Origin: Pseudomonas lalucatii
GTDB taxonomy: Bacteria; Pseudomonadota; Gammaproteobacteria; Pseudomonadales; Pseudomonadaceae
Direction: 5' to 3'
Length of the DNA stretch: 64,000 nt
Assembly: GCF_018398425.1 (NCBI RefSeq)
Contig: NZ_JADPMV010000001.1
Location: 620,001 to 684,000, forward strand
Under the pieces are notes generated by a model. It was not told the origin of the DNA. It was given only the letters and a program-made list of their open reading frames with translations, and did no database searches. This document shows, piece by piece, positions 13,812 to 36,830 of this stretch; position 1 is the first letter of the stretch, and every line of letters starts with the position of its first letter. A program made the translations under genes and the position numbers.

Positions 13812-15269
13812 TCACTCGGCCTGGCGCGGCAGCATCAGGGTCACCCGCAGGCCGCCTTCGCGCAGGTTCTGCAGGCTCAGCTCGCCGCCGTGGCTGTGGG
13901 CGATGTTGCGCGCGATGCCCAGGCCCAGGCCGTAGCCCTGCTGCTGGCCGGCCAGGCGGAAATGCGGCTCGAACACCTGCTCCAGGCGCTGTTCGGGCAC
14001 CCCCGGCCCCTCGTCGTCGACGTGCAGGACGAAGGCCTTGCCGTCGTCCTCGATCCGCAGGTGGGCGCGCTCGCCGTACTTCAGGGCGTTGTCCACCAGG
14101 TTGCCGATGCAGCGCTTGAGCGCCAGCGGCTTTCCCGGGTAACTGGCCAGGGCCTGGCCCTCGAGGGTCACCCGGCCGTTGCCGGCCGGCGCCAGGTAGG
14201 GCTCGATCACGCAGTTGAGCAGATGGTTGAGGTCGACCGGCTCGATGTTCTCGTGGATGTCGGTGTCCTTGACGCACTGCAGCGCGCCCTTGACCAGCAT
14301 CTCCAGCTCGTCCAGGTCGCGGCCGAACTTGGCCTGCAACGCCTCGTCGTCGAGCAATTCGACGCGCAGGCGCAGGCGGGTGATGGGCGTGCGCAGGTCG
14401 TGGGAGATCGCGCTGAACAGCTGGCTGCGCTCGCGCAGGTAGCGGCCGATGCGTTCGCGCATGTTGTTGAAGGCGCGGCTGACCTCCACCACCTCGCTGC
14501 CGCCAGCCTCGGCCAGCGGCTCCACCTCGCTGCCCAGGGACATCTCCCGCGCCGCCACCGCCAGGCGCTTGAGCGGCCGGCTCTGCCAGTGCACCAGCAG
14601 GCCGATGAACAGCAGCAGGAAGCTGCTGGTGAGGATGATGAACCACAGCTGCTGGGCCGGCAGCCCCTGTTGCTCCAGGCTGACATAGGGTTCGGGCATC
14701 AGCGAGGCGAGGTACAGCCATTCGTTCGGCGCGATCCGGATCTGCGTCACCAGCACCGGCGGATTCAGCGGCTCCAGGCTCAGGGCGTAGTGCGCCCAGG
14801 AACGGGGCAGCTGGTCGAGCTTCAGGGCGCTGTTGAAGATCAGCAGGTCATCCGGGCTGACGAACTGCACGGAAAGGTCCAGGTCCTTGCCCAGGCGCTC
14901 GCGCAGCGTCGCATCCACGGCATCGAGCACCGCGCGCTTGCGCGGGGTCTGCGGCAGCACCTGCATGTCCAGCGGCTTGTCGTTGAGCGAGACGAAGAAC
15001 CGCGTGCCGCCCATGTTGCGCAACTGGTCGAGCACCAGCGGCCGGTAGCCCAGGGGCAGGGAGCGGAAGTAGCCGACGCTGGCGGCCATCGACTGGGCCA
15101 GGCTGCGCGCGCTGGTGAGCAGCCCCTCCATCTGGCTGGCGCGCAACTGCGAGACCCAGATGAAACTCGACAGGGCCTGGGCCAGCAGCACCACCAGCAG
15201 GGTCAGCAGCAGCATGCGCGCCAGCAGCGAGCGCGGCACCGGCAGCAGCCGGCGCAGGTTAATGGCCAT
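13812..15269 (-). CDS. gtrS: Sensor histidine kinase GtrS
   Basis: Membrane sensor kinase of 485 residues, partner of GltR; in P. aeruginosa this pair responds to 2-ketogluconate and activates sugar uptake genes. Layout: membrane segment about 17-37, periplasmic sensor domain about 38-208, second membrane segment FIILTSSFLLLFIGLLVHW, HAMP, then H-box SHDLRTPITRLRLRVELL, N-box NLVDNALKYGE and ATP-lid motifs DEGPGVPEQ and GYGLGLGIARN. The ATG overlaps the end of gltR by 11 bases. The gene name rests on locus position and domain layout. Confidence 0.88.
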   Translation of the reverse strand: MAINLRRLLPVPRSLLARMLLLTLLVVLLAQALSSFIWVSQLRASQMEGLLTSARSLAQSMAASVGYFRSLPLGYRPLVLDQLRNMGGTRFFVSLNDKPLDMQVLPQTPRKRAVLDAVDATLRERLGKDLDLSVQFVSPDDLLIFNSALKLDQLPRSWAHYALSLEPLNPPVLVTQIRIAPNEWLYLASLMPEPYVSLEQQGLPAQQLWFIILTSSFLLLFIGLLVHWQSRPLKRLAVAAREMSLGSEVEPLAEAGGSEVVEVSRAFNNMRERIGRYLRERSQLFSAISHDLRTPITRLRLRVELLDDEALQAKFGRDLDELEMLVKGALQCVKDTDIHENIEPVDLNHLLNCVIEPYLAPAGNGRVTLEGQALASYPGKPLALKRCIGNLVDNALKYGERAHLRIEDDGKAFVLHVDDEGPGVPEQRLEQVFEPHFRLAGQQQGYGLGLGIARNIAHSHGGELSLQNLREGGLRVTLMLPRQAE

Positions 15270-15993
15270 CGCCCAGGTACGGCGTGACGCTGGCCGCCAG
15301 CAGGTAGCCGCTGCCGCGCACCGTGCGGATCAGCCGCGACGGCTTGTCGGTGTCGCGCAGGCGCTGGCGCAGGCGGCTGACCGCCATGTCGACGATGCGC
15401 TCCAGCGGCATCACCTCGCGGCCACGGGTGGCGTTGCCGATGGTGTCGCGGTCGAGGATCTGCTGCGGATGGTCGAGAAACAGCTTGAGCAGGGCGAAGT
15501 CGGCGCCGGAGAGGATCACCTCCTCGCCGTCGGCGTGGAACAGCCGGTGGCTGACCATGTCCAGGCGCCAGTCATCGAAGGCCAGCACCTCGCTGCCGCG
15601 CTCATGGCTGAAATGGGCGCGGCGCAGCAGGGCCTTGATCCGCGCCAACAGCTCGCGGGGGCTGAACGGCTTGCCCAGGTAGTCGTCGGCGCCCAGCTCC
15701 AGGCCGATGACCCGGTCGGCCTCGTCGGAACTGGCGGTGAGCATGATGATCGGCACCTGGGCGAAACGCTGGTGCTCGCGCACCCAGCGGCACAGGCTGA
15801 AGCCGTCCTCGTCGGGCAGCATCACATCGAGGATCAGCAGATCCGCCGGCTCGGCGCACAGTCCCTGGCGCAAACCCGCGCCATCGCCGACCGTGCGCAC
15901 CTGGAAGCCGGCGCGGCTCAGGTAGGTGTGCAGCAGCTCGCGAATTTCCTGGTCGTCATCGACCAGCAATATCGACTTTCCGGGCAGGCTCAT
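15259..15993 (-). CDS. gltR: OmpR-family response regulator GltR
   Basis: DNA-binding response regulator of 244 residues. Receiver domain: acidic cluster LLVDDDQEIRE, phospho-accepting Asp in LLILDVMLPDEDG, and LGKPFSPREL. The C-terminal winged helix ends in RLIRTVRGSGYLLA. It lies upstream of gtrS on the same strand. Known role in pseudomonads: control of glucose transport genes; the gtsA and lamB promoters here are natural targets. The leader reads AACAATAAGGATGG (16013-16000), a Crc/Hfq-like A-rich site before the ribosome site. Confidence 0.9.
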   Translation of the reverse strand: MSLPGKSILLVDDDQEIRELLHTYLSRAGFQVRTVGDGAGLRQGLCAEPADLLILDVMLPDEDGFSLCRWVREHQRFAQVPIIMLTASSDEADRVIGLELGADDYLGKPFSPRELLARIKALLRRAHFSHERGSEVLAFDDWRLDMVSHRLFHADGEEVILSGADFALLKLFLDHPQQILDRDTIGNATRGREVMPLERIVDMAVSRLRQRLRDTDKPSRLIRTVRGSGYLLAASVTPYLGDGH

Positions 15994-16054
15994 GCTCCGC
16001 CATCCTTATTGTTAGATCATCGGCCGCAGGCGGCGCGAACGGGCGCGCGCCAGC

Positions 16055-17019
16055 CTACACCCGGGCCGTGGCAAATACTTGCTGCAAAGCGACACCCGCG
16101 CCCATCAGCCCCGGGTACTCGGCCGTCACCAGCCACGCCGGCACCCCGTCGAAATACGGGCTCATGACGCCCTTGTCGCGCAGGCAGCGGGCGAAGCCGC
16201 TGGCCAGGAACAGCTCGGCGAAACGCGGCACCACGCCGCCGACTATGTAGACGCCGCCGCGGCCTCCCAGGCTCAGCACCAGGTTGCCGGCCGCACGGCC
16301 GAGCCAGCAGCAGAACTGCTCGACCACCGCCTGCGCCGGGGCGTCGCCGGCCAGCGCCGCCGCGGTGACCTCGGCCGGCGAGCCCAGGTGCGGCTCATGG
16401 CCATCCAGGGCACAGAGGGCGCGGTACAGCGCCAGCAGGCCGCCGCCACTGAGCACGTCCTCGGCGCGCACATGGCCGAGCTGGCGATACAGCTGCTGCC
16501 ACAACGCGGCCTCGCGCGGACTGCCGATCGGCAGGTCGACGTGGCCGCCCTCACCCGGCAGCGCCAGCCAACTGCCGTCGGCCGACTGCAGCAGGGTGCC
16601 GACGCCCAGGCCGGTGCCGGGGCCGATCACCACGCAGGGGCGGTGCGCCTCCGGCGCGCCGGGACAGACCTGCAGGCGCTCGTCCTCGCGCAGGCGGGTC
16701 ATGCCCAGGGCCATGGCGGAGAAGTCGTTGACCAGCAGCAACTCGCGTACCTGCAGTTCGCGGCAGAAGGCCGCGCGGCTGATGCGCCAGTGGTTGTTGG
16801 TGAAGCGGAACAGGTCGCCGCCCACCGGCCCGGCGCAGGCCAGGCACACCGCGTCCACCGCGCCGAGCGGCAGCCCGAGCTCACCCAGATAGGCGCGGAT
16901 CGCCGCCTCCGGCCCCGGGTAGTCGGCGGTGGCCAGCACCCGCACCGACTCCAGCTGCGCGTCGCGCCACAGGGCGAAACGCGCATTGGTGCCGCCGATG
17001 TCGCCGACCAGCGCCAGCT

Positions 17020-17023
<4 letters not shown>
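16055..17023 (-). CDS. glk: Glucokinase
   Basis: Phosphorylates glucose to glucose-6-phosphate with ATP in the cytoplasm. 322 residues from a GTG start that overlaps the edd stop (GTGA), giving [18 protein letters not shown]; no ATG fits this conserved N-terminus. Motifs: phosphate loop [10 protein letters not shown], catalytic Asp in [22 protein letters not shown] and [11 protein letters not shown]. Translationally coupled to edd, so the pathway's kinase and dehydratase are made together and under the HexR-type control of the edd promoter. Confidence 0.96.
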
Positions 17024-18846
<1,823 letters not shown>

Positions 18847-18879
18847 GTTGTCGACTCCAGGCTGGCGAATGACGATATT

Positions 18880-18894
18880 TTGTACTTACTACGA
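18880..18894 (-). promoter_or_regulatory. HexR-type operator at edd
   Basis: TTGT-N7-ACGA on the plus strand, a 7 of 8 match to TTGT-N7-ACAA. On the minus strand it overlaps a candidate edd promoter with -35 TTGACT just upstream. Derepression by KDPG through HexR is established in Pseudomonas; here it is inferred from the site. Confidence 0.6.
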
Positions 18895-18935
18895 GAATAT
18901 TGCCAGTCAAACGGCTTGATTTCTACACCTTTGAA

Positions 18936-18960
18936 TATAATCTTGTAATTCCAACAACAA
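18936..18960 (+). promoter_or_regulatory. gap promoter -10, HexR-type operator and A-rich leader
   Basis: A consensus -10 TATAAT (18936-18941) is followed by TTGTAATTCCAACAA (18943-18957), an exact TTGT-N7-ACAA HexR-form operator over the expected start. AACAACAA (18953-18960) overlaps its right arm and fits the Crc/Hfq pattern. Confidence 0.65.
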
Positions 18961-18978
18961 AATCACGAGACCTCCACC

Positions 18979-19983
18979 ATGACCCTACGAATCGCCATCA
19001 ATGGCTTCGGCCGCATCGGCCGCAACGTCCTGCGCGCCCTCTACAGCCAGGACTACCGCCAACAACTGCAGGTCGTGGCGATCAACGACCTGGGCGACAG
19101 CGCGATGAACGCGCACCTGTTCAAATACGACAGCGTGCACGGCATCTTCGAAGGCCAGGTGCAGGCCGACGGCGAGCATCTGACGGTCAATGGCGACCGC
19201 ATCGCCGTCAGCGCCATTCGCAATCCGGCCGAGCTGCCGTGGCGGGCCCTGCAGGTCGACCTGGTGCTCGAGTGCACCGGGCTGTTCACCGAACGCGACA
19301 AGGCCGCCGCCCACCTGCGTGCCGGCGCCCACAAGGTACTGATCTCGGCACCGGCCAAGGGCGCCGACGCCACCCTGGTGTTTGGCGTCAACCAGGACGT
19401 GCTGCGCCAGTCCATGCAGATCATCTCCAACGCCTCCTGCACCACCAACTGCCTGGCGCCGGTGGCCCAGGTGCTGCAGCGCGAGCTGGGCATCGAGCAG
19501 GGCCTGATGACCACCATCCACGCCTACACCAACGACCAGAACCTCTCCGACGTCTATCACGGCGACCCCTACCGCGCCCGCTCGGCGACCCAGTCGATGA
19601 TCCCGACCAAGACCGGCGCCGCCGAGGCAGTGGGCCTGGTGCTCCCGGAACTGGCCGGCAAGCTGACCGGCATGGCCGTACGGGTGCCGGTGATCAACGT
19701 CTCGCTGGTCGACCTGACCCTGCAGGTCAAGCGCGAGACCACGGCCGAGGAGATCAACGCCCTGCTCAAGGCGGCCAGCGAGCAATCGCCGGTGCTCGGC
19801 TACAACAGCCTGCCCCTGGTGTCCTGCGACTTCAACCACAACCCGCTGTCGTCGATCTTCGACGCCAACCACACCAAGGTCAGCGGCAAGCTGGTCAAGG
19901 TCATGGCCTGGTACGACAACGAATGGGGCTTCTCCAACCGCATGCTCGACAGCGCCCTGGCGCTGTGCCACGCCCCCGCATGA
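18979..19983 (+). CDS. gap: Glyceraldehyde-3-phosphate dehydrogenase, phosphorylating
   Basis: Oxidises glyceraldehyde-3-phosphate with NAD and phosphate to 1,3-bisphosphoglycerate. 334 residues. NAD-binding [15 protein letters not shown] at the N-terminus, catalytic Cys in [15 protein letters not shown], and [12 protein letters not shown] near the end. A ribosome site ACCTCC-like stretch precedes the ATG. Divergent from edd and sharing a HexR-controlled spacer, as in other pseudomonads. It contrasts with the non-phosphorylating GAPN at the left edge: the two give the cell different ATP/NADPH yields from the same substrate. Confidence 0.96.
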
Positions 19984-20064
19984 GGCACGGCCGGGCAAGG
20001 GCCGGGCAAGGGCCGGGGCCAGGCGGCGGGTGCGCGCCGGCTCGCAAAGTTTTCTGCGGGGGCC

Positions 20065-20090
20065 TGTAACAAAAGTCCATACCGCCCGTC
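20065..20090 (+). promoter_or_regulatory. ECF-like promoter candidate before the buf operon
   Basis: TGTAAC, 16 bases, CGTC, about 130 bases before bufA. The GTAAC/CGTC pair with this spacing resembles promoters used by some ECF sigma factors; DUF2282 operons in other proteobacteria are often ECF-controlled. No sigma factor gene is in the window, so this is tentative. Confidence 0.35.
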
Positions 20091-20220: not shown

Positions 20221-20529
20221 ATGAAAACCACTGCTTCCCATGCTGTTTCGGCCGCCGGTCTCGCCCTTGCCCTGGGGGCAGCCCTGGCAATCTCCAGCGC
20301 TCCGCTCACCGCCCAGGCGGCGGAGAACGAGAAGTGCTACGGCGTATCCATGAAGGGCAAGAACGACTGCGCCGCCGGCCCCGGCACCACCTGCGCCGGT
20401 ACCGCCAAGACCGACTACCAGGGCAACGCCTGGAAATTCGTCCCGGAGGGCACCTGCAAGGAAATCGCCTCGCCGACCTCGCCGACCGGCTTCGGCCAGC
20501 TCGAGGCCTTCGAGGAAGTGAAGTCCTGA
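20221..20529 (+). CDS. bufA: DUF2282 bufferin-type RiPP precursor (BufA)
   Basis: Small exported precursor of 102 residues: signal peptide MKTTASHAV...TAQAA (about 1-34), then a mature part with exactly four Cys at 39 (EKCYG), 50 (NDCAAG), 58 (TTCAGT) and 79 (GTCKEI). This is the DUF2282 pattern. Members made with an MNIO enzyme (bufferins) have Cys residues converted to thiooxazole-type copper-binding groups and protect cells from copper. The start is chosen by GGAG ribosome site and signal peptide; an upstream in-frame ATG would spoil the signal. It heads bufA-bufB-bufC-doxX, leading to a copper efflux set. Confidence 0.88.
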
Positions 20530-20551
20530 TCGGCCAGCAGGAGCGCTGTTG

Positions 20552-21454
20552 ATGATCCCCACCCCCAATCCCCCTGTCAGCAGCGCCCCTGCGCTTCGGC
20601 CCGCGCTTCCCAGCCGGGCCGGCATCAGCCTTAAATCGCAGCACTTCGAGGAGATTCTCGATAACCCGCCAGCCGTTGGCTTCTTCGAGGTCCATGCGGA
20701 GAACTACATGGTCGCCGGCGGCCCCTTCCACCACTACCTGGGGCTGATCCGCGAGCGCTATCCCCTGTCGATTCACGGCGTCGGATTGTCCATAGGCGGC
20801 CAGCAGGCCCTCGACAGCGAACACCTGCAGCGCCTGGCCAGGCTGCTCGAACGCTATCAACCCGAATCATTTTCCGAGCACCTGGCCTGGTCGAGCCATG
20901 GCGAGGTGTTCCTCAACGACTTGCTGCCGATCTGCTACGACGCACAGACCCTCGAGCGGGTCTGCGCCCACGTCGATCAGGTCCAGCAGCACCTGCAGCG
21001 GCAGATGCTGCTGGAGAATCCGGCAACCTACCTGCAGTTCGCCGGCTCCACCCTGGACGAGGCCCACTTCATCAACGAAGTGGTGCGTCGCACCGGCTGC
21101 GGCCTGGTGCTCGACGTCAACAACATCTATGTCTCCTGCATCAACCACCACTGGGACGCCCAGGCCTACCTGCGCGCCCTGCCGCTGGACGCGGTGGGCG
21201 AGATCCACCTGGCCGGCTTCACCGAGGACCGCGATGCGGCCGGCGACCGCCTGCTGATCGACAGCCACGGCGCGCCGGTCGACAACGCGGTGTGGCGGCT
21301 CTTCGAGGACGCCCTGGGGCTGATCGGGCCGACCCCCACCCTGCTCGAGCGGGACAACGCGGTGCCGCCGCTGGATGCACTGGTGCGCGAAGCGCAGCAG
21401 GCCCAGGCGCTGCTCGATGCCTGTGAGCCGCGTCGACAGCAGGCCCGGGCATGA
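20552..21454 (+). CDS. bufB: MNIO-family (DUF692) peptide-modifying iron enzyme (BufB)
   Basis: Multinuclear non-haem iron oxygenase of 300 residues, TIM-barrel fold, expected to modify cysteines of the DUF2282 precursor. Metal-ligand and core motifs: [65 protein letters not shown] and LLERD, together giving the usual set of His, Asp, Glu and Asn ligands. The start is ATG at 20552, with AGGAG 8 bases before, 22 bases after bufA. The stop overlaps the bufC start (ATGA), indicating coupling. Confidence 0.9.
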
Positions 21455-22230
21455 GCATGCAGCAGCAATTCGCCGCCGCCCTGCTCGATCCACAGCTGGA
21501 TTGCCCGGCACAGCTGCGCGCCTGGAACGGCTCCGACCCGGCACAGCGTTTCGCCGTCTACCGCAACAACGTACTCAGCTCCCTGGTCGATGCCCTGGCC
21601 GCCAGCTTCCCGGTGGCCCAGCAGTTGGTGGGCGAGGCCTTCTTCCGCGCCATGGCGGCCGAGTTCGTGCGTGGCGCGCCGCCACGCTCGCGCATCCTGG
21701 CCTACTACGGGGCCGGCTTCCCGGCCTTCATCGAAGGCTTCGCGCCGGCCGCCGGCCTGCCCTACCTGGCGGACGTGGCGCGCCTGGAACTGCTGCGCAT
21801 CGAGGCCTACCACGCCGCCGACGCCGCCCCCGTCGCCCATGATGCGCTGGCCGCCGCCCTGGCCACTCCCGAGCGCGTCGGCGCCCTGCACTTCCAGCTG
21901 CACCCGGCACTCGGCGTGCTCGCGTCGGCCTTCGCGGTGGTCTCGCTGTGGGCCGCCCATCAGGGCGAACGACGGCTCACCGGCCTGGACCCCGGCCTGG
22001 GCGAATGCGCCCTGGTCCAGCGCCGGGCGCTGGAGGTCGAGGTACTCGGCATCCGCCCGGGCGCCGCGCGCTTCATCCAGGCCCTGCAGCAGGGACGCCC
22101 CCTGGGGCAGGCCGCAGCAGACGCCCTGGCGCACGACGCCGAATTCGACCTCGGCCACTGCCTGGCCCAGCTGCTCGGCAGCGGCGCCATCATCCGCTTC
22201 GCCTACGCCAACCAAGGACAACAGCCATGA
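21451..22230 (+). CDS. bufC: DUF2063 partner protein of the MNIO enzyme (BufC)
   Basis: 259 residues, with the N-terminal DUF2063 pattern [18 protein letters not shown] followed by [13 protein letters not shown] and a C-terminal half rich in Ala and Leu. The domain was once labelled putative DNA-binding, but in RiPP clusters it acts as the recognition partner that brings the precursor to the MNIO enzyme; I infer the same here. Start overlaps bufB's stop by 4 bases and its stop overlaps the doxX start by 3, so the four genes are one translationally coupled unit. Confidence 0.85.
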
Positions 22231-22745
22231 GCAATTCCGCCGACCTGGCCCGCGCCGCCGCCCCCGTCCGCCTGATCGCCTGGGCGATCGACCTGTGCAA
22301 GCTGATTCCCTACAGCCTGGTGGCCCTGCTCGGTCGCTTCTCGATCGCCGCGGTGTTCTGGAAGTCCGGCCAGACCAAGATCGAGGGCCTGGCCATCGAC
22401 ATCGTCGAGGGCACCTTCGAGCTCGGCCTGCCCAGGCTCTCGGCTTCGGCCGTGCCGCTGTTCGAGCACGAGTACCAGGTGCCGCTGCTGCCCGCGGAAC
22501 TGGCCGCGCAGCTGGCGGCCTTCGCCGAGCACCTGTTTCCCATCCTCATCCTCCTCGGCCTGGCCACCCGTTTCTCCGCCCTGGCGCTGCTCGGCATGAC
22601 CCTGGTGATCCAGCTGTTCGTCTACCCTGGCGCCTACCCGACCCACGGCGTCTGGGCGGCCGTGCTGCTGCTGCTGGCGGCCAAGGGCCCCGGTGTTCTT
22701 GCCCTGGATCAACTCATCGCCAGGCACTATGGTTATAATCGCTGA
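22227..22745 (+). CDS. DoxX-family inner-membrane protein
   Basis: 172 residues with about four membrane helices, beginning IPYSLVALLGRFSIAAVFWKSGQTKI, a DoxX start pattern, and ending in an HGVWAAVLLLLAAKGPG helix. DoxX proteins commonly close DUF2282-DUF692-DUF2063 operons; their role there is unclear, perhaps redox or membrane protection during metal stress. Coupled to bufC. A TATAAT at 22734-22739 near its end could be part of a promoter for the downstream genes, but no good -35 accompanies it. Confidence 0.85.
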   Translation: MSNSADLARAAAPVRLIAWAIDLCKLIPYSLVALLGRFSIAAVFWKSGQTKIEGLAIDIVEGTFELGLPRLSASAVPLFEHEYQVPLLPAELAAQLAAFAEHLFPILILLGLATRFSALALLGMTLVIQLFVYPGAYPTHGVWAAVLLLLAAKGPGVLALDQLIARHYGYNR

Positions 22746-22773
22746 CCCGTCACAGCCGAATCATCACGCCACC

Positions 22774-23109
22774 ATGACCGCCCGCCTGCTCCTGTGCCTG
22801 CTGCTCTGCCTCGCGCTGCCCCTCAACGGGCTGGCGGCGCTGGCCGTGCAGGCCGAGCCCTGCCCGATGCCGGCCCAGGCCCATGAGACGCCGATGCCGG
22901 CCGGGAGCGATTGCTGCGACGCCCAGAAAAGCGCGCAGCTCGGCAGCAAGGTGTGCAAGAACGGCCAGCAATGCCAGAGCGCCGGCCTGCCCCAACTGGC
23001 CACGGCCAGGACGCAGTTCCCCGCCGCGGCCACCCCCGCCCCGACGGGCTACGGCGACTTCCTCCCCTCGCAGGCCCCCGAAGACCTCTGGCGCCCACCC
23101 CGCGGCTGA
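22774..23109 (+). CDS. Small exported cysteine-rich protein
   Basis: 111 residues: signal peptide MTARLLLCLLLCLALPLNGLAALA, then five Cys in the mature part (30, 47, 48, 61, 67) arranged EPCPMP, SDCCDA, KVCKNG, QQCQS, plus Met and His nearby. The layout resembles small metal-resistance proteins that precede copper exporters (CopL / DUF2946-like), but I cannot assign a family with certainty. It starts 28 bases after doxX and ends 99 bases before the cusC-like gene. No clear ribosome site precedes the ATG; an earlier in-frame ATG at 22729 exists. A periplasmic copper-binding role is inferred from context. Confidence 0.65.
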   Translation: MTARLLLCLLLCLALPLNGLAALAVQAEPCPMPAQAHETPMPAGSDCCDAQKSAQLGSKVCKNGQQCQSAGLPQLATARTQFPAAATPAPTGYGDFLPSQAPEDLWRPPRG

Positions 23110-23208
23110 TTCCCGTCCTGTCCTGAACGTCGCTGCGCGCTCCCTGGTGCACAGCGACACGTGCGCCTGCGCGTGTGCCGGCGCTGGATCATCAGCGGAA
23201 CTCCTGCC

Positions 23209-24459
23209 ATGAGAACACCTGAAACCCGCAGCGGGCGCACCGGCGCGCTGCTGGCCGCCTGCCTGCTGGCCCTGCCCGCCTGGGCGGCCGCCCTGACCCT
23301 GGACGAAGCCCTGCAGCTGGCCGAGCGACAGGCGCCCTCGCTGGCCGCCCAGGCAGCCGGCGTCGACGCCGCCCGCAACGCGGCCATTCCCGCCGGCGAA
23401 CTGCCGGACCCCAAGCTGCTGCTCGGCCTGCAGAACGTCCCCGCCGAAGGCCCCGACCGCGGCAGCCTCAACAGCGACTTCATGACCATGCAGATGGTCG
23501 GCGTCATGCAGGAGGTGCCCAATCGCGCCAAGCGCCGGGCACGGGTAGAGGTGGCCCAGGCCGGTATCCGGCGGGCCGACGCCGAGCAGCGGATCGAGCG
23601 GCTCAGGGTCAGACGGGAAACCGCCATGGCCTGGATCTCGACCCTGGCCGTCGAGCAGAAGCTCGACCTGTTCGCCAACCTCTACGAGGAGAACCGCCTG
23701 CTCGCCAAGGCCGTGCAGGCGCGCATCGCCGGTGCTCGCGGCCAGGTCGCCGACAGCGTGGTGCCCAAGCAGGAGGCGGCCCTGCTGGCCGAGGAGGAAG
23801 ATCGGCTGATCGCCGCACGCACCCGGCAGCAGGCCGCACTGCGGCGCTGGATCGGCGAGACGGCCACGCAGGCACCGGTCGGCCGCCAGCCCCAGTGGCC
23901 GGTCGACGCCCAGCACTACCGCAGCCAGCTGCAGCGACACCCGGAGCTGAGCGCCTTCGCGCCCATGACCGAGGAGGCCGAGGCCAGGGTGCGCGAGGCG
24001 CTGGCGGACAAGCGCCCGGACTGGAGCTGGGAGCTGGACTACCAGCGCCGCGGCCGCGCGTTCGGCGACATGCTGAGCCTGCAGTTCAGCGTCGACCTGC
24101 CGCTGTTTCCGGGCGCCAGGCAGAACCCCAGGATCGCCGCGCGCCACGCCGAGCTGGACCGTGTACAGGCCGAACGCGAAGCGCTGGAACGCGAACATGC
24201 CGCGCAGCTGGCCGAGGACCTGGCCGAATACCAGCGCCTGGACCGCGCCGTGCAACGCAGCCAGGACAGCCTGCTGCCGCTGGCCGAGGAAAAGCGCGCC
24301 CTGACGATGGCCGGCTACCGCGCCGGCAGCGCCGAGCTCGGCGAGCTGGTGGCCGCCCGCCGCGAACTGATCGAAGCCCGCCTGCGCCATATCGACCTCG
24401 AGGAACAGCGCGCCCTGAGCAACGCCCGCCTGTACTTCGCCTATGGAGAATCCCCTTGA
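23209..24459 (+). CDS. cusC: Outer-membrane channel of Cu/Ag efflux system (CusC/TolC family)
   Basis: Outer-membrane efflux protein of 416 residues with a signal peptide (RTGALLAACLLALPAWAAA). TolC-type repeats are visible as TLDEALQLAERQAPSLAAQ and long Ala/Glu/Arg-rich helices with GYRAGSAELGELVAARRELIEARLR near the C-terminus. The ATG at 23209 gives the proper signal sequence; upstream in-frame codons are Arg-rich. Its stop overlaps the cusB start by one base (TGATG). No N-terminal lipoprotein Cys typical of E. coli CusC is evident, so it is closer to CzcC-type members. Confidence 0.88.
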   Translation: MRTPETRSGRTGALLAACLLALPAWAAALTLDEALQLAERQAPSLAAQAAGVDAARNAAIPAGELPDPKLLLGLQNVPAEGPDRGSLNSDFMTMQMVGVMQEVPNRAKRRARVEVAQAGIRRADAEQRIERLRVRRETAMAWISTLAVEQKLDLFANLYEENRLLAKAVQARIAGARGQVADSVVPKQEAALLAEEEDRLIAARTRQQAALRRWIGETATQAPVGRQPQWPVDAQHYRSQLQRHPELSAFAPMTEEAEARVREALADKRPDWSWELDYQRRGRAFGDMLSLQFSVDLPLFPGARQNPRIAARHAELDRVQAEREALEREHAAQLAEDLAEYQRLDRAVQRSQDSLLPLAEEKRALTMAGYRAGSAELGELVAARRELIEARLRHIDLEEQRALSNARLYFAYGESP

Positions 24460-25934
24460 TGAGCACTCGAATCATGCAAGGCGCCGTGCTTGCCGGCCTG
24501 GCGCTCGCCATCGGCGCCCTCGGCGGCTACGGCCTCGCCAGACAGGCCGGCGCCCCCGCCGCCGACACCGCGGCAGCGGCGCCCGCCCCGCAAGGCGAGG
24601 TGCTGTACTGGTACGACCCCATGTACCCGCAACAGAAGTTCGACCAACCCGGCAAGTCGCCCTTCATGGACATGCAGCTGGTGCCCCGCTATGCCGACGG
24701 CGCCGGCGACAGCGCCGCGGTCAGCATCGATGCCAGCGTCGCCCAGAATCTCGGCATGCGCCTGGCCCCGGTCACCCGCGAGGCCATGAGCGGCAGCCTG
24801 GAGGTGGTCGGCAGCCTGACCTTCAACAGCCGCGATGTCGCCGTGGTGCAGGCGCGCAGCGGCGGTTTCGTCGAGCGGGTCTACCCGCTGGCGCCGGACG
24901 ACCTGCTGGCCGCCGGCGCGCCCCTGGCCGAGCTGCTGGTGCCCGCCTGGGCCCAGGCCCAGGAGGAGTTCCTCGCCCTGCGCGCCACGGCCGAGCCCGA
25001 GCTGCTGGCCGCCGCGCGCCAGGGCATGCGCCTGGCCGGCATGCCGGCCGCACTGATCGAGCAGGTGGCGCGCAGCGGCAGGGTGCAGACGCTGTGGACG
25101 GCCACCAGCCCCATCGCCGGGGTACTGCAGACCCTCGAGGTGCGCGCCGGCATGACCCTGGCTGCAGGCGAGCCGCTGGCGACCATCAACGGCCTGGCCA
25201 GCGTGTGGCTGGACGCCGCGGTGCCCGAGGCCCAGGCCCAGGGCCTGGCGCCCGGCCAGAGGGTCGAGGTGCGCCTGCCGGCCTTGCCCGGCGAGGTGCT
25301 GGAAGGACGCATCGAGCGCATCCTGCCCGAGGCCAACCTGGACAGCCGCACCCTGCGGGTCAGGGTCGCACTGGCCAACCCCGATGGCCGCCTGCGGCCG
25401 GGGCTGACCGCCCAGGTGCGCCTGGCCCGCCCGGCCGAGCGGGCCGCGCTGTGGGTGCCGAGCGAGGCGGTGATCCGCACCGGCCGCCGTGCCCTGGTGA
25501 TGCTCGCCGAGGATGGCGGACGCTACCGCCCGGCCGAGGTCCGCCTGGGCCGCGAGACCGGCGACAAGACCCAGGTCCTCGAAGGCCTGCAGGAAGGCCA
25601 GCGGGTGGTCGCCTCCGGGCAGTTCCTGCTCGACTCCGAGGCCAGCCTGCGCGGCATCCTCGCCCGGGGCCTGGACGGTCCCCAGACGCCCGCCGCCCAG
25701 CCGGCCCTGCACGAGGCCGAAGGCCGGGTCATCGCCATCGACGGCGACTCGCTGCGTCTCGCCCACGGCCCGTTCAAGACCCTCGGCATGCCGGGCATGA
25801 CCATGAGCTTCCCGCTGGCCGATCCGGCCTTGGCCCAGGGCATCCAGACCGGCGAGCGGGTGCGCGTCGGCGTACGCCAGAGCGATGAGGGCCTGCTGAT
25901 CGAGCGCCTGGAGAAGCTCGAGGTGCAGCCATGA
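24459..25934 (+). CDS. cusB: Cu/Ag efflux membrane-fusion protein with fused CusF-like domain
   Basis: Periplasmic adaptor of 491 residues that joins CusA to the outer-membrane channel. N-terminal anchor/signal, then a heavy-metal-binding domain [13 protein letters not shown]...[11 protein letters not shown] (about 48-80, Met-rich, a Cu/Ag signature), the biotinyl-lipoyl and beta-barrel adaptor region, and a C-terminal domain of about 70 residues (EGRVIAIDG...[14 protein letters not shown]) matching CusF-type metallochaperones. Thus the chaperone that is a separate protein in E. coli is fused here. Overlaps cusA by 4 bases. Confidence 0.93.
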
Positions 25935-28900
25935 TCGCCGCCCTGATCCGCTGGTCGGTGGGCAACCGCCTGCTGGTGCTGCTGGCCACCCTGTTCGCCA
26001 CCGCCTGGGGCGTCTGGTCGCTGCAGAACACCCCCATCGATGCGCTGCCCGACCTGTCCGACGTGCAGGTGATCATCCGCACCCCCTACCCCGGCCAGGC
26101 CCCGCAGATCGTCGAGAATCAGGTCACCTACCCCCTGGCCACCACCATGCTCGCGGTGCCGGGGGCGAAGACGGTGCGCGCCTATTCGTTCTTCGGCGAC
26201 AGCTTCGTCTATGTGCTGTTCGAGGACGGCACCGACCTGTACTGGGCGCGCTCGCGGGTGCTGGAATACCTCAGCCAGGTGCAGAGCCGCCTGCCGGCCG
26301 GCGCCAAACCGGCCCTGGGGCCGGACGCCACCGGGGTCGGCTGGATCTACCAGTACGCCCTGGTCGATCGCAGCGGGCGGCATGACCTGGCCCAGCTGCG
26401 CGCCCTGCAGGACTGGTTTCTCAAGTTCGAACTGAAGACCCTGGCCAACGTCGCCGAGGTGGCGACCATCGGCGGCATGGTCAAGCAGTACCAGGTACAG
26501 CTCGACCCGCTCAAGCTGGCCAGCCTGGGCATCACCCAGGCCGAGGTGACGGCGGCCATCGGCCGCGCCAACCAGGAAACCGGCGGTGCGCTGCTGGAGC
26601 TGGCGGAGACCGAGTTCATGGTGCGCGCCTCCGGCTACCTGCAGACGCTGGCGGACTTCCGCGCCATTCCCCTGCGCCTGGATCGCGGCGGCGTGCCGGT
26701 GACCCTCGGCGACGTGGCGCACATCCAGCTCGGCCCGGAGATGCGCCGCGGCATCGCCGAGCTGGACGGCGAGGGCGAAGTGGTCGGCGGCGTGGTGATC
26801 CTGCGCAGCGGCAAGAACGCCCGCGCCACCATCGCCGCGGTCAAGACCAAGCTCGAGGCGCTCGAGGCCAGCCTGCCGGAGGGGGTGGAGATCGTCACCA
26901 CCTATGACCGCAGCCAGCTGATCGACCGCGCGGTACGCAACCTGGGCGAAAAGCTGGTGGAGGAGTTCATCGTCGTCGCCCTGGTCTGCGCCCTGTTCCT
27001 CTGGCACCTGCGCTCCTCCCTGGTGGCCATCGTCTCCCTGCCGGTCGGCGTGCTGATCGCCTTCGCGGTCATGCAGCAGCAGGGCATCAACGCCAACATC
27101 ATGTCCCTCGGCGGCATCGCCATCGCCATCGGCGCGATGGTCGACGCCGCGGTGGTGATGATCGAGAACGCCCACAAGAAGGTCGAGGCCTGGCGCGAGG
27201 CCCATCCCGGCGAGGAGCTCAAGGGCGAGCAGCACTGGCAGGTGATGACCGCGGCGGCGGTGGAGGTCGGCCCGGCGCTGTTCTTCTGCCTGCTGATCAT
27301 CACCCTGTCGTTCGTCCCGGTGTTCACCCTGCAGGCCCAGGAGGGCCGTCTGTTCGGCCCCCTGGCCTTCACCAAGACCTACGCCATGGCCGCCGCCGCC
27401 GGCCTGTCGGTGACCCTGGTGCCGGTGCTGATGGGCTACTGGATTCGCGGGCGGATTCCCTCCGAGGCGCGCAACCCGCTGAACCGCGGGCTGATCCGCC
27501 TCTACCAGCCGGCCCTGGAAGGGGTGCTGCGCTGGCCCAGGACCACGCTGCTGGTGGCCGTGCTGGTGTTCCTCAGCGCCCTGTGGCCCCTGTCACGCCT
27601 GGGCGGCGAGTTCCTGCCGCCGCTGGACGAGGGCGACCTGCTGTACATGCCCTCGGCCCTGCCCGGGCTGTCGGCGCAGCAAGCCGCGCAGCTGCTGCAG
27701 CAGACCGACCGGCTGATCAAGACGGTGCCGGAAGTCGCCCACGTGTTCGGCAAGGCCGGCCGCGCCGAGACCGCCACCGACCCGGCGCCGCTGGAGATGT
27801 TCGAGACCACCATCGCTTTCAAGCCCCAGGAGCAATGGCGCGCCGGCATGACGCCGGACAGGCTGGTGGAGGAGCTGGACCGGGTGGTGCAGGTGCCGGG
27901 GCTGACCAATATCTGGATTCCGCCGATCCGCAACCGCATCGACATGCTCGCCACCGGTATCAAGAGCCCGATCGGGGTTAAGGTCGCCGGCAGCGACCTG
28001 GCGCAGATCGACGAGACCACCCAGGCCATCGAGCAGGTGGCCAAGCAGGTGCCGGGGGTCAGCTCGGCGCTGGCCGAGCGCCTCACCGGCGGCCGCTACA
28101 TCGACGTCGACATCGACCGCCAGGCCGCGGCGCGCTATGGCCTGAACATCGCCGATGTACAGGCCATAGTCGCCGGCGCCATCGGTGGCGAGAATATCGG
28201 CGAGACCATCGAGGGTCTGGCGCGTTTCCCCATCAGCCTGCGCTATCCGCGGGAATGGCGCGACTCCCTGGGCGGCCTGGAACAACTGCCGATCTACACC
28301 CCCCAGGGCAGCCAGATCACCCTCGGCACGGTGGCGCGCATCGCGGTCAGCGACGGCCCGCCGATGCTCAAGAGCGAGAACGCGCGGCCCTCGGGCTGGG
28401 TCTACGTGGACGTGCGCGGCCGTGACCTGGCCTCGGTGGTGGCCGACCTGCGCGGCGCCATCGAGCAGCAGGTGCGCCTGCAGCCGGGCGTCAGCCTGAG
28501 CTACTCGGGGCAGTTCGAGTTCCTCGAGCGGGCCAACGCACGGCTCAAGCTGGTGGTGCCGGCCACCCTGCTGATCATCTTCGTGCTGCTCTACCTGTGC
28601 TTCGCCCGCTTCAGCGAGGCGGCGCTGATCATGCTCACCCTGCCCTTCGCCCTGGTCGGTGGAGTCTGGTTCCTCTACCTGCTGGGCTACAACCTGTCGG
28701 TGGCCACCGGGGTCGGTTTCATCGCCCTGGCCGGGGTCGCCGCCGAGTTCGGCGTGATCATGCTGCTGTACCTGAAGAACGCCTGGGAGGCGAGCCAGGC
28801 GGCTGGCCATCACGGCGAGAACGCGCTGCTCGAGGCGATTCGCGAGGGCGCCGTGCAGCGCGTACGGCCCAAGGCCATGACCGTGGCGGTGATCATCGCC

Positions 28901-29098
28901 GGCCTGTTGCCGATCCTGCTCGGCAGCGGCACCGGCAGCGAGGTGATGAGCCGCATCGCCGCGCCCATGGTCGGCGGCATGCTCAGCGCGCCGCTGCTGT
29001 CGCTGTTCGTGCTGCCGGCGGCCTACCGCCTGATGCACGGCCGCGGCGTGGCGCGGGCCGGTGCCACAGGCGCCCTGCCGGCGGCCGCGAGCGACTAG
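25931..29098 (+). CDS. cusA: Cu(I)/Ag(I) RND efflux pump
   Basis: Proton-driven heavy-metal exporter of the HME-RND family, 1055 residues with twelve membrane helices in the usual 1+5+1+5 plan. The three Met residues that carry Cu/Ag in CusA are in conserved settings: [29 protein letters not shown] and [14 protein letters not shown]. This supports Cu/Ag over Zn/Co/Cd. Last gene of the copper block; its stop overlaps by 4 bases the tail of a LysR gene on the other strand. Confidence 0.95.
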
Positions 29099-29988
29099 CC
29101 GCTCGGGCCGAGGCGGCCGGCGAGGTAGTCGAGGAAGCAGCCGATGCGCGAGGCCAGCGCGGTGTTGCGGTAGTACACCGCGTGGATCGCCTGGCGCACC
29201 TCGACGGTGGCCTGTGGCAGCAGCTGTACCAGCTCGCCGCGGGCGCGGTCGCCACGGGTCATGAAATCGGCCAGGCAGACGATGCCGGCGCCGGCCAGGG
29301 CCAGTTGGCGCAGGGTCTCGCCGCTGGAGGCCACAAGGCTGGGGCTGATCGCCAGGCTGTCGCCCAGCGCGTGGCGCAGCGGCCAGTGGTTGAGGCTGTC
29401 CGGCTGGGTGAAGCCGAGCAGGCTGTGACCGGCCAGCGCCTCGACGCTCTGCGGCGTGCCATGGGCCGCCAGATAGGCCGGGCTGGCGAGCACGCGCAGA
29501 CGGTTGCTGCCCAGCGGGCGGGCATGCAGGCTCGAGTCGCGCAGCGCACCGATGCGGATGGCGACATCGGTGCGCTGCTCGAGCAGGTCGATGATGCGCT
29601 CGCTGCTGTGCAGCTCCAGCTGGATCTGCGGGTACTGCCGGCGAAAATCCTCGATCAGCGGCACCACCACATGCAGCATGAAAGGCGCCGCGGCATTCAC
29701 CCGCAGGCGCCCTGCCGGCTGCTGGCGGCGCAGAGCCATCTGCTCTTCGGCCTCGTCCACCGCAGCGACGATCCGCCGCGCCTGGACGAGGAACACCTGG
29801 CCCTCCTCGGTCAGCTCCAGGCGGCGGGTGGTACGGCGCAGCAGGGTGGTCTCGAGCTTGGTTTCCAGGCGGCCCAGGGCACGACTGATGCCCGAGGTGG
29901 TCTGCGCCAATTGCTCGGCCGCAGCGGTGATGGAGCCGCTGTCGACCACATGGATAAAGGCTTGCAGCTCGTCCAGGGTGCTTTTCAT
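29095..29988 (-). CDS. LysR-family transcriptional regulator
   Basis: 297 residues: N-terminal winged helix-turn-helix ([38 protein letters not shown]) and a C-terminal effector-binding domain. Divergent from an MFS transporter across 101 bases, with an inverted repeat TTGA-N7-TCAA in the spacer near its own start; it probably controls the transporter. Effector unknown. The CrgA/PA-type cluster of LysR proteins often works this way with efflux permeases. Confidence 0.9.
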
Positions 29989-35762: not shown

Positions 35763-36830
35763 ATGGATTCGCTTACCCAGGCCCTGCTCGGCGCCACCCT
35801 CCAGGGCGCCCTGCTCGGCCGCTGGCAGGGGCGCAAGGCACTGCTGTATGGCGCCGCCCTCGGCACCCTGCCCGACCTCGACGTGGTGATCAACTACGGC
35901 GACGCGGTGGCGAACATGACCTACCACCGCGGCTTCACTCACTCGCTGTTCGTCCTCTCCGGCCTGGCCCTGCTGCTGACCTGGCTGATCCGCCGCTTTC
36001 GCCCGCACCCCGGCTATTCGGCCCGACGCCTGCTGGCCACGGTCGCCCTGGTGCTGCTGACCCACCCCCTGCTCGACTGCTTCACCAGCTACGGCACGCA
36101 GATCTTCTGGCCACTGCCCCAGGTGCCGGTGGCCTGGTCGAGCATCTTCATCATCGACCCGCTCTACACCGCGCCGCTGCTGGTTGCGGTGCTGTTCGGC
36201 GCGTTCTACGACCTGCGCGCCAAGGCACCCAGGGCGGCGCTGCTCGCCCTGGGCCTGTCCAGCCTCTACCTGGCCTCGACCCTGGCCGGCAAGGCCATGG
36301 CCGAGCGGCGCGTGGAAGCCGAACTGGCGCGTCAGGGCATCCAGGCCGAGGCGCTGTTCAGCACGCCGACGCCGCTCAACAGCCTGCTATGGCGGGTGAT
36401 AGTGCTGGACGGCGAGTCCTACCACGAGGCCCTGGTCGGCTGGCTCGACGAGCAGCCGCCGCGCCTCGAACGCATTCCCCGCGGCACCGCCCTGGCCGTA
36501 CCCCTGGCACAGTCGCCGGCGCACCGCCGCCTGCACTGGTTCACCAACGGTGTGCTGCGCTACGACCGGATCGACGAGCACCTGGTGGTCACCGACCTGC
36601 GCCTGGGCATGACCGGCTTCCATCCGTTCCGCTTCGATTTCGCCCACTGGCAGGACGGCGCCTGGCAGGTCAACCCGCAGATCCCGCGCTGGCCCATGGA
36701 CCGCGGCAACCCGCAGCACCTCGCCCTGTTGTGGGCGCGCATCTGGCAGCCCGAGGTCGAGATACCGCTGGCCGCCTGGGCCGCCGAGCTGGGCAAACCG
36801 CTGCTGGCGGCCAAGCCGCGCCACGACTGA
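35763..36830 (+). CDS. YdjM-like membrane-bound metal-dependent hydrolase
   Basis: 355 residues, family once called LexA-binding inner membrane-associated hydrolase. Conserved start DSLTQALLGATLQGALLG, DLDVVINYGD and the HRGFTHSLF motif with His residues for metal, within about five membrane helices; C-terminal half soluble. Function is not known biochemically. No SOS box was seen upstream. Confidence 0.85.
   Translation: MDSLTQALLGATLQGALLGRWQGRKALLYGAALGTLPDLDVVINYGDAVANMTYHRGFTHSLFVLSGLALLLTWLIRRFRPHPGYSARRLLATVALVLLTHPLLDCFTSYGTQIFWPLPQVPVAWSSIFIIDPLYTAPLLVAVLFGAFYDLRAKAPRAALLALGLSSLYLASTLAGKAMAERRVEAELARQGIQAEALFSTPTPLNSLLWRVIVLDGESYHEALVGWLDEQPPRLERIPRGTALAVPLAQSPAHRRLHWFTNGVLRYDRIDEHLVVTDLRLGMTGFHPFRFDFAHWQDGAWQVNPQIPRWPMDRGNPQHLALLWARIWQPEVEIPLAAWAAELGKPLLAAKPRHD

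Follow-up and report, generated by a model that had tools for sequence, protein, structure and literature searches.

Why should a bufferin operon be followed directly, on the same strand, by the genes of a Cus-type copper exporter? The locus that raises this question occupies positions 20221–29098 of a 64,000-nucleotide stretch of the Pseudomonas lalucatii genome (contig NZ_JADPMV010000001.1, positions 620,001 to 684,000; host genome 4.58 Mb), to which we refer as the window, and it comprises eight plus-strand genes in the order bufA-bufB-bufC-doxX-cysR-cusC-cusB-cusA, where cysR is our own label for the gene of a Cys-rich protein. Bufferins are widespread, and, as far as we are aware, the fate of the copper that they bind is not settled. 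We argue here, with moderate confidence, that this is a composite copper-defense locus, in which a bufferin operon and a cysR-cusCBA cassette would combine periplasmic Cu(I) buffering with export. Both halves are of known kinds, and it is their join that is new.

Gene Families and Spacing

Every gene of the locus except cysR scores above its curated Pfam cut-off. BufA (20221–20529, 102 amino acids) is a DUF2282 protein (PF10048, 87.8 bits against a cut-off of 22.4) with a signal peptide-like N-terminus, as judged by eye, and with Cys residues placed by alignment at 39, 50, 58, and 79, as expected of a four-Cys bufferin-1 precursor; no NCBIfam model matched it. BufB (20552–21454, 300 amino acids) belongs to the MbnB_TglH_ChrH/MNIO family (PF05114, 353.9 bits against 25), is recognized by NCBIfam as an “MNIO family bufferin maturase” (NF050167, 384 against 310), and can be aligned with the solved MNIO structures 3bww, 8hci, and 7dz9. 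The remaining two proteins of a bufferin-1 cluster are present as the DUF2063 partner BufC (21451–22230, 259 amino acids; PF09836, 98.1 against 27.2) and the DoxX-family membrane protein (22227–22745; PF07681, 57.2 against 23.6), both of which fall under the cut-offs of the NCBIfam models HvfC (49.2, cut-off 142) and HvfX (34.4, cut-off 80), respectively.

The second half contains a CusCBA exporter in which CusB, CusC, and CusF are all recognized by Pfam. CusC (23209–24459, from the start that we prefer) is an outer membrane factor (OEP, PF02321, 110.2 bits against 22, scored on a longer reading from 23161). The adaptor CusB (24459–25934; PF16576, PF11604, and PF19335) carries CusB-type domains, an N-terminal HMBD domain (39.7 against 23.6), and a fused C-terminal CusF_Ec domain (76.7 against 27), and it aligns with E. 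coli CusB (3ne5), with the DPMYP and PFMDM motifs kept; the NCBIfam models for CusB (325.6 against 390) and CusF (19.7 against 143) remain under their cut-offs. The MTM pair and the His of CusF are retained in the fused domain, in which a Met stands at what we take to be the position of the E. coli CusF Trp. CusA (25931–29098) is an HME-RND protein (ACR_tran, 773.2 against 28; “CusA/CzcA family”, TIGR00914, 1395.8 against 701.45) that aligns with E. coli CusA (3t51) at 1618 bits, with Met573, Met623, and Met672 opposite Met at positions that are presumably the Met triad of the E. coli copper site. The genome has no other CusA-like gene at E ≤ 1e-100. A CusRS-type two-component system, which is not strictly required for this assignment, does not adjoin cusCBA, the neighbors there being a LysR and an MFS gene; the only CopR-type regulator of the genome above its cut-off (CopR/SilR-type, 334.8 against 279.2) lies elsewhere, at C2:317959.

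Most of the spacings look operon-like: bufA and bufB are 22 nucleotides apart, the bufB/bufC, bufC/doxX, and cusB/cusA junctions are ATGA overlaps, and the cusC/cusB junction is a TGATG overlap, with 28 nucleotides between the doxX stop and the cysR ATG and 99 between cysR and cusC. Eight genes on one strand, with their families, coordinates, and a 28-base gap behind doxX, had been proposed in an earlier sequence-only reading, and the open reading frame positions, the Pfam and NCBIfam matches, and the measured gap all agree with it.

CysR as a Usual First Gene of Pseudomonas cus Cassettes

The small exported Cys-rich protein encoded by cysR (22774–23109) matched no Pfam or NCBIfam family, and a 24-row alignment gives it the conserved pattern PCPM..CC..CKxGxxC, followed by a C-terminal WRPPR. 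The same reading had singled out this protein as a new-looking point, which does not hold: cysR is found in 154 of 398 genomes of the genus, which rules it out as a novel component, and a cusA match stands beside it in 22 of the 24 standalone loci that were read, the other two being L117, which is cut by a contig end, and L119. Most of these 24 loci were chosen by their CusA hit, and six of the eight chosen by cysR alone also have cusA. A plasmid search for cysR returned 33 records, all from Pseudomonas. The gene is a usual first gene in Pseudomonas cus cassettes, and its product may serve in periplasmic Cu(I) binding. An alternative cysR start at the in-frame ATG at 22729, inside doxX, was discarded because it is out of frame, as checked by hand, in the two closest joined relatives.

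Frequency of the Join

Across the 398 genus genomes, that of the window included, bufA is present in 234 and both bufA and cysR in 99, and bufA stands just 5′ of cysR in at least five: the window, G138 (locus L082), G185 (L083), G041 (L084), and G042 (L122). This figure is a lower bound, as draft contig ends may conceal further joins and some cysR copies have no listed position, namely extra copies in G030, G046, G180, G265, G320, G358, G360, and G390 and the sole copy in G169; the buf locus of G265 (L096) has no cysR match. Pairings in the 99 two-module genomes were read from the lists of matches, and distances were computed for the 41 in which both modules share a contig (that of G009 being approximate, as taken from its locus). 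The nearest unjoined pair, in G070, is 9.4 kb apart on the same strand, and the next ones are 18 kb or more apart. We note that the buf locus of this genome (L101) is rearranged, with doxX beside bufA and with bufB and bufC further on, and cysR-cusCBA lies approximately 9 kb downstream on the same strand.

Wider sampling gave no further case. Among the best 80 of 331 BufB relatives from named genomes, all of them Pseudomonas, none of the 80 buf loci has cysR, cusC, or cusA in its flanks (up to 10 kb per side, less at contig ends), and the sole CusB match is a stretch of 69 residues at 30% identity in L070. A phylum-wide draw was positive in 63 of 299 genomes, and 60 of the 66 listed places were read, leaving out the window, three congeneric genomes, G532, and G574; cysR, cusC, or cusB occurs in none of these 60 buf loci (of which L193 ends at bufC), and the sole CusA match is a 25% fragment approximately 6 kb from the buf genes. 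A general bacterial linkage of buf and cus is therefore ruled out by the phylum loci. The comparison of gene order across Pseudomonas genomes that the sequence-only reading had called for thus finds that the physical join, put forward there as new-looking, is indeed rare (at least 5 of 398 in the genus, 0 of 80 named loci, and 0 of 60 phylum loci).

Chromosomal Site and History of the Join

In the window, a LysR gene (29095–29988, minus strand) and then an MFS gene follow 3′ of cusA, and both are kept downstream in L082. Three related loci without the join (L085, L087, and L089) consist of edd-gap-bufABCD followed by a lysR 83% identical to that of the window, with no cus between, and a fourth (L088) has gap-bufABCD without cus and without that lysR. 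The cus genes lie on another contig in the genomes of L087 and L089; in G380 (L085), they share a contig with buf at a distance of approximately 1.6 Mb. Since the same site exists without cus in L085, L087, and L089, it appears that cysR-cusCBA was inserted behind doxX and so came to stand between doxX and lysR in the lineage of the window. The joined loci L084 and L122 have flanks on both sides that are common to the two and match nothing in the 64 kb of the window, and they thus represent a second site. In all five joined loci, the gap from doxX to cysR is 17–28 nucleotides.

The region directly 5′ of buf, at 15259–20000, appears by eye to be an ordinary glucose-catabolism cluster, with an OmpR-type regulator, a glucokinase-like stretch, edd, and gap; the last two serve as a marker of the site.

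Taking sites and trees together, two separate joins are likely. The alternative, which concerns history only, is a single ancestral join that was later split, with L085–L089 and L002/L003 having lost or moved cus, and we consider it rather unlikely. It would fit the grouping of all five joined Cus sets in one nine-row clade (support 100/100), together with four standalone sets, and a single joined clade is not rejected by the approximately unbiased (AU) test either for CysR-CusCBA (p=0.062) or for BufB alone (p=0.085). Against this, the same topology is rejected by the concatenated BufABC-DoxX alignment (AU p=6e-5) and weakly by CusA alone (p=0.032), the two joined groups occupy different chromosomal sites, and a -10-like box (TAGAGT or TAAAGT) stands before cysR in L084 and L122 and is absent from the other joined loci. 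The best tree from CusA alone does not place the window, L082, and L083 in one clade (p=0.078 against keeping them together), and the concatenated Cus tree unites the three with full support; L122 and L084 have long branches in the trees.

The doxX-cysR Junction

Sigma-70 and terminator scans found little, and no terminator-like site separates doxX from cysR. The standalone Pseudomonas cassettes have the gene order and the Cys-rich first gene seen in the window, and 17 of the 24 carry a TANANT -10-like box 10–20 nucleotides before the cysR ATG, whereas none of the three loci of the window's lineage (window, L082, and L083) has such a box there, doxX in the window ending 28 nucleotides upstream. 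The final doxX codons TAT GGT TAT AAT (TATGGTTATAAT, 22728–22739) are identical in these three loci. Across seven genes (cysR excluded) of the three joined genomes, 44 of 2072 amino acid-conserved codons are identical and end in A or T, and this is the sole run of four such codons, the next longest being a run of three in bufA; the G+C content at third positions (GC3) of doxX is 0.88–0.91. The TATAAT is not found at the doxX end of the four gap-linked relatives without cus. It resembles a retained -10 element approximately 35 nucleotides before cysR, and its odd conservation raises the possibility that cus is additionally served by a promoter inside the locus.

Carried further, this would make the locus two adjacent copper units under separate control and with no transcript in common. 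The cysR-cusCBA genes would be transcribed mainly from the internal promoter (TATAAT at 22734–22739, with a start probably near 22746), possibly controlled by a CopR/CusR-type regulator whose gene lies elsewhere, and buf would use its own promoter. We regard this as rather improbable, although the conserved codon run in so GC-rich a gene, the CopR/SilR-type regulator above its cut-off, and the box owned by most standalone cysR genes all speak for it. The TATAAT has no recognizable -35 at normal spacing, the consensus promoter scan gave no plus-strand hit, no exact palindrome (arms of 5–7) occurs at 22561–22800, and an internal promoter would not stop read-through from buf.

An overlapping reading at the doxX end, ATG GTT ATA ATC GCT GAC (22728–22774), could be a small leader frame or a mere by-product of the TATAAT. 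In L083, the same reading stops at a TGA that overlaps the cysR start, and a leader peptide MVIIAD across the end of doxX was set aside because its frame agrees with that of cysR only in the window. As a separate observation, TTAATGC words recur 5′ of standalone cysR in L101, L106, L109, L113, L115, and L119, and are possibly a response-regulator box.

The Region Upstream of bufA

A putative extracytoplasmic function (ECF)-type promoter, TGTAAC-N16-CGTC, lies at 20065–20090 on the plus strand, and the motif stands 5′ of bufA in all seven loci of the gap-linked clade (window, L082, L083, L085, L087, L088, and L089). A related TGTAA-N18-CTCT occurs in 75 of 108 Pseudomonas upstream regions. The motif of Caulobacter sigma-F, GTAACC-N16-CGAA (PMC3511200), is found in 6 of the 108 and in 13 of the 60 loci from the phylum draw. 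When the letters of all 168 upstream regions were shuffled, each motif scored fewer than 0.1 hits per set; the counts are not independent, as many loci are close kin and the 108 contain at least one duplicate, L003 and L100 being one and the same stretch. Genome-wide, TGTAAC-N16-CGTC has 8 sites against 18 for a backward-read control, so that the motif alone is not specific and was rejected as genome-specific proof of ECF control. The genome has 11 sigma-70 region 2 genes, none of them near the other motif sites.

We note that six more distant Pseudomonas loci (L090, L091, L098, L129, L130, and L135) carry the Caulobacter-type GTAACC-N16-CGAA, and that the clade of the window and most other Pseudomonas loci carry a different ECF-like motif, so that a single operon type has two classes of control within the genus. 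A further element, GTTC[TC]ATGCT, lies approximately 50 nucleotides 5′ of bufA in the window, L082, L083, L087, and L088, and is not kept in L085 and L089. This second shared element is -10-like, and bufA may accordingly be served by two promoters.

Relation to Known Systems

Legionella GIG is reportedly among the bufferin-1/gig operons. Those of Caulobacter (CCNA_03363-03366) and Cupriavidus (gigPABT), as described in PMC12452194, PMC8224329, and PMC10304878, have the same core as the window, namely a DUF2282 precursor with four Cys, an MNIO, a DUF2063 protein, and DoxX. The Caulobacter bufferin locus is copper-induced (PMC8224329), and part of the published Buf1 clusters include sigma and NrsF genes (PMC12452194); ordered copper binding is reported for DUF2282 products (PMC13097082). 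The four-gene Pseudomonas cluster has itself been described as Pep1 (PMC8719888). The Cupriavidus gig transcript was verified to the end of gigT, “not beyond”, whereas in the window a Cus exporter follows, and a sigma/anti-sigma pair of the ECF type adjoins gig, in contrast to the window, which has no adjacent sigma gene (PMC10304878).

The exporter half resembles E. coli CusCFBA in the three identically placed CusA Met residues and in the Met motifs of CusB, and it differs both from CusCFBA and from Cupriavidus cusDCBAF in having CusF fused to CusB and no adjacent cusRS. Cupriavidus CusD is described as an exported lipoprotein of the twin-arginine pathway with Met-rich motifs (PMC10304878), and CysR is set apart from it by description, as it shows by eye neither a twin arginine nor a lipobox and is Cys- rather than Met-rich.

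That copper is the common theme of both halves, as the sequence-only reading had it, is supported by the three Met residues that CusA shares with the E. coli copper site and by the functional interplay of Gig and Cus in Cupriavidus metallidurans (PMC10304878). There, gig and cus are separate determinants, and Cus increases copper resistance only together with Cup, Cop, or Gig plus glutathione (PMC10304878). The join in the window therefore links two systems whose interplay has already been measured in another organism.

A literature search made mostly without subscription papers found no description of bufferin genes linked in this way to those of a Cus exporter and no paper with DUF2282 and cusA together, and the main texts of PMC12452194 and PMC13097082 do not contain “efflux”, “cusA”, or “RND”. 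The MNIO cluster survey took an unrelated gene into account only if it lay no more than 10 bp from a gene of the cluster, and it found extra conserved genes in extremely low proportions (PMC12452194); with this limit, joins with gaps of 17–28 nucleotides were probably left out.

A Proposed Composite Copper-Defense Locus

The reading that we favor, a composite locus for copper buffering and export, would work as follows. A bufferin-1 operon, comprising bufA, the bufB and bufC that would modify its product, and doxX, would have gained cysR-cusCBA directly behind doxX. Envelope copper stress would switch on the promoter upstream of bufA, from which transcripts would read through into cysR-cusCBA, and a further promoter, lying within the 3′ end of doxX, would probably give the pump basal expression or a control of its own. 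In the periplasm, Cu(I) would then be bound by modified BufA and by CysR, and this bound copper would be taken up and exported by CusA, CusC, and CusB, the last with its fused CusF domain. Co-transcription of buf and cus and the hand-over of copper are thus what we infer from the gene arrangement.

Several observations weigh against this reading. Only 5 of the 99 two-module genomes are joined. In the rest, the listed copies are separated by 9 kb in one genome, by 18 kb or more in others, or sit on different contigs, and one genome is unplaced; the join is therefore dispensable. The TATAAT kept within doxX also points to an ability of cus to be transcribed independently of buf. L083 shares the upstream genes and has a different LysR (34%) some kb 3′ of cusA, its genes further downstream matching the window again (84% to 35763–36824). 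None of the sigma-70 region 2 genes falls within the 64 kb of the window, and the genome lacks NrsF, for which reason an NrsF-SigF circuit was rejected. In Cupriavidus, deletion of gig alone had no effect on copper resistance and cus is not regulated by Gig (PMC10304878).

The weakest alternative, an accident of gene order that left a cus cassette behind buf by chance and without functional meaning, draws on the rarity of the join and its absence from the 60 phylum loci, and is made very improbable by its retention in three related genomes over considerable divergence (0.18–0.35 changes per column along the concatenated Cus path), by its reappearance at a second site in two others, and by a rough hand estimate of approximately 0.03 joins expected by chance (99 genomes of ~5 Mb, counting same-strand cases with cysR no more than 3 kb downstream of bufA). 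A join kept in two related genomes and recurring at another site in two is, on these grounds, more than noise.

Returning to the composite locus, a rare join that has apparently arisen more than once hints at peptide and pump as partners. In its strongest form, the bufferin would be a dedicated periplasmic Cu(I) carrier for CusCBA that collects the metal and, together with CysR, delivers it to the fused CusF domain of CusB, in a partnership strong enough for the operons to have been joined at least twice in Pseudomonas; we put this forward as unlikely and strictly tentative. Were it true, the sink for bufferin-bound copper would be export. With a bufferin operon fused to the genome's only close CusA exporter, the proposition that the bufferin feeds Cus becomes testable in one locus, and near relatives with both parts unlinked provide its natural controls.

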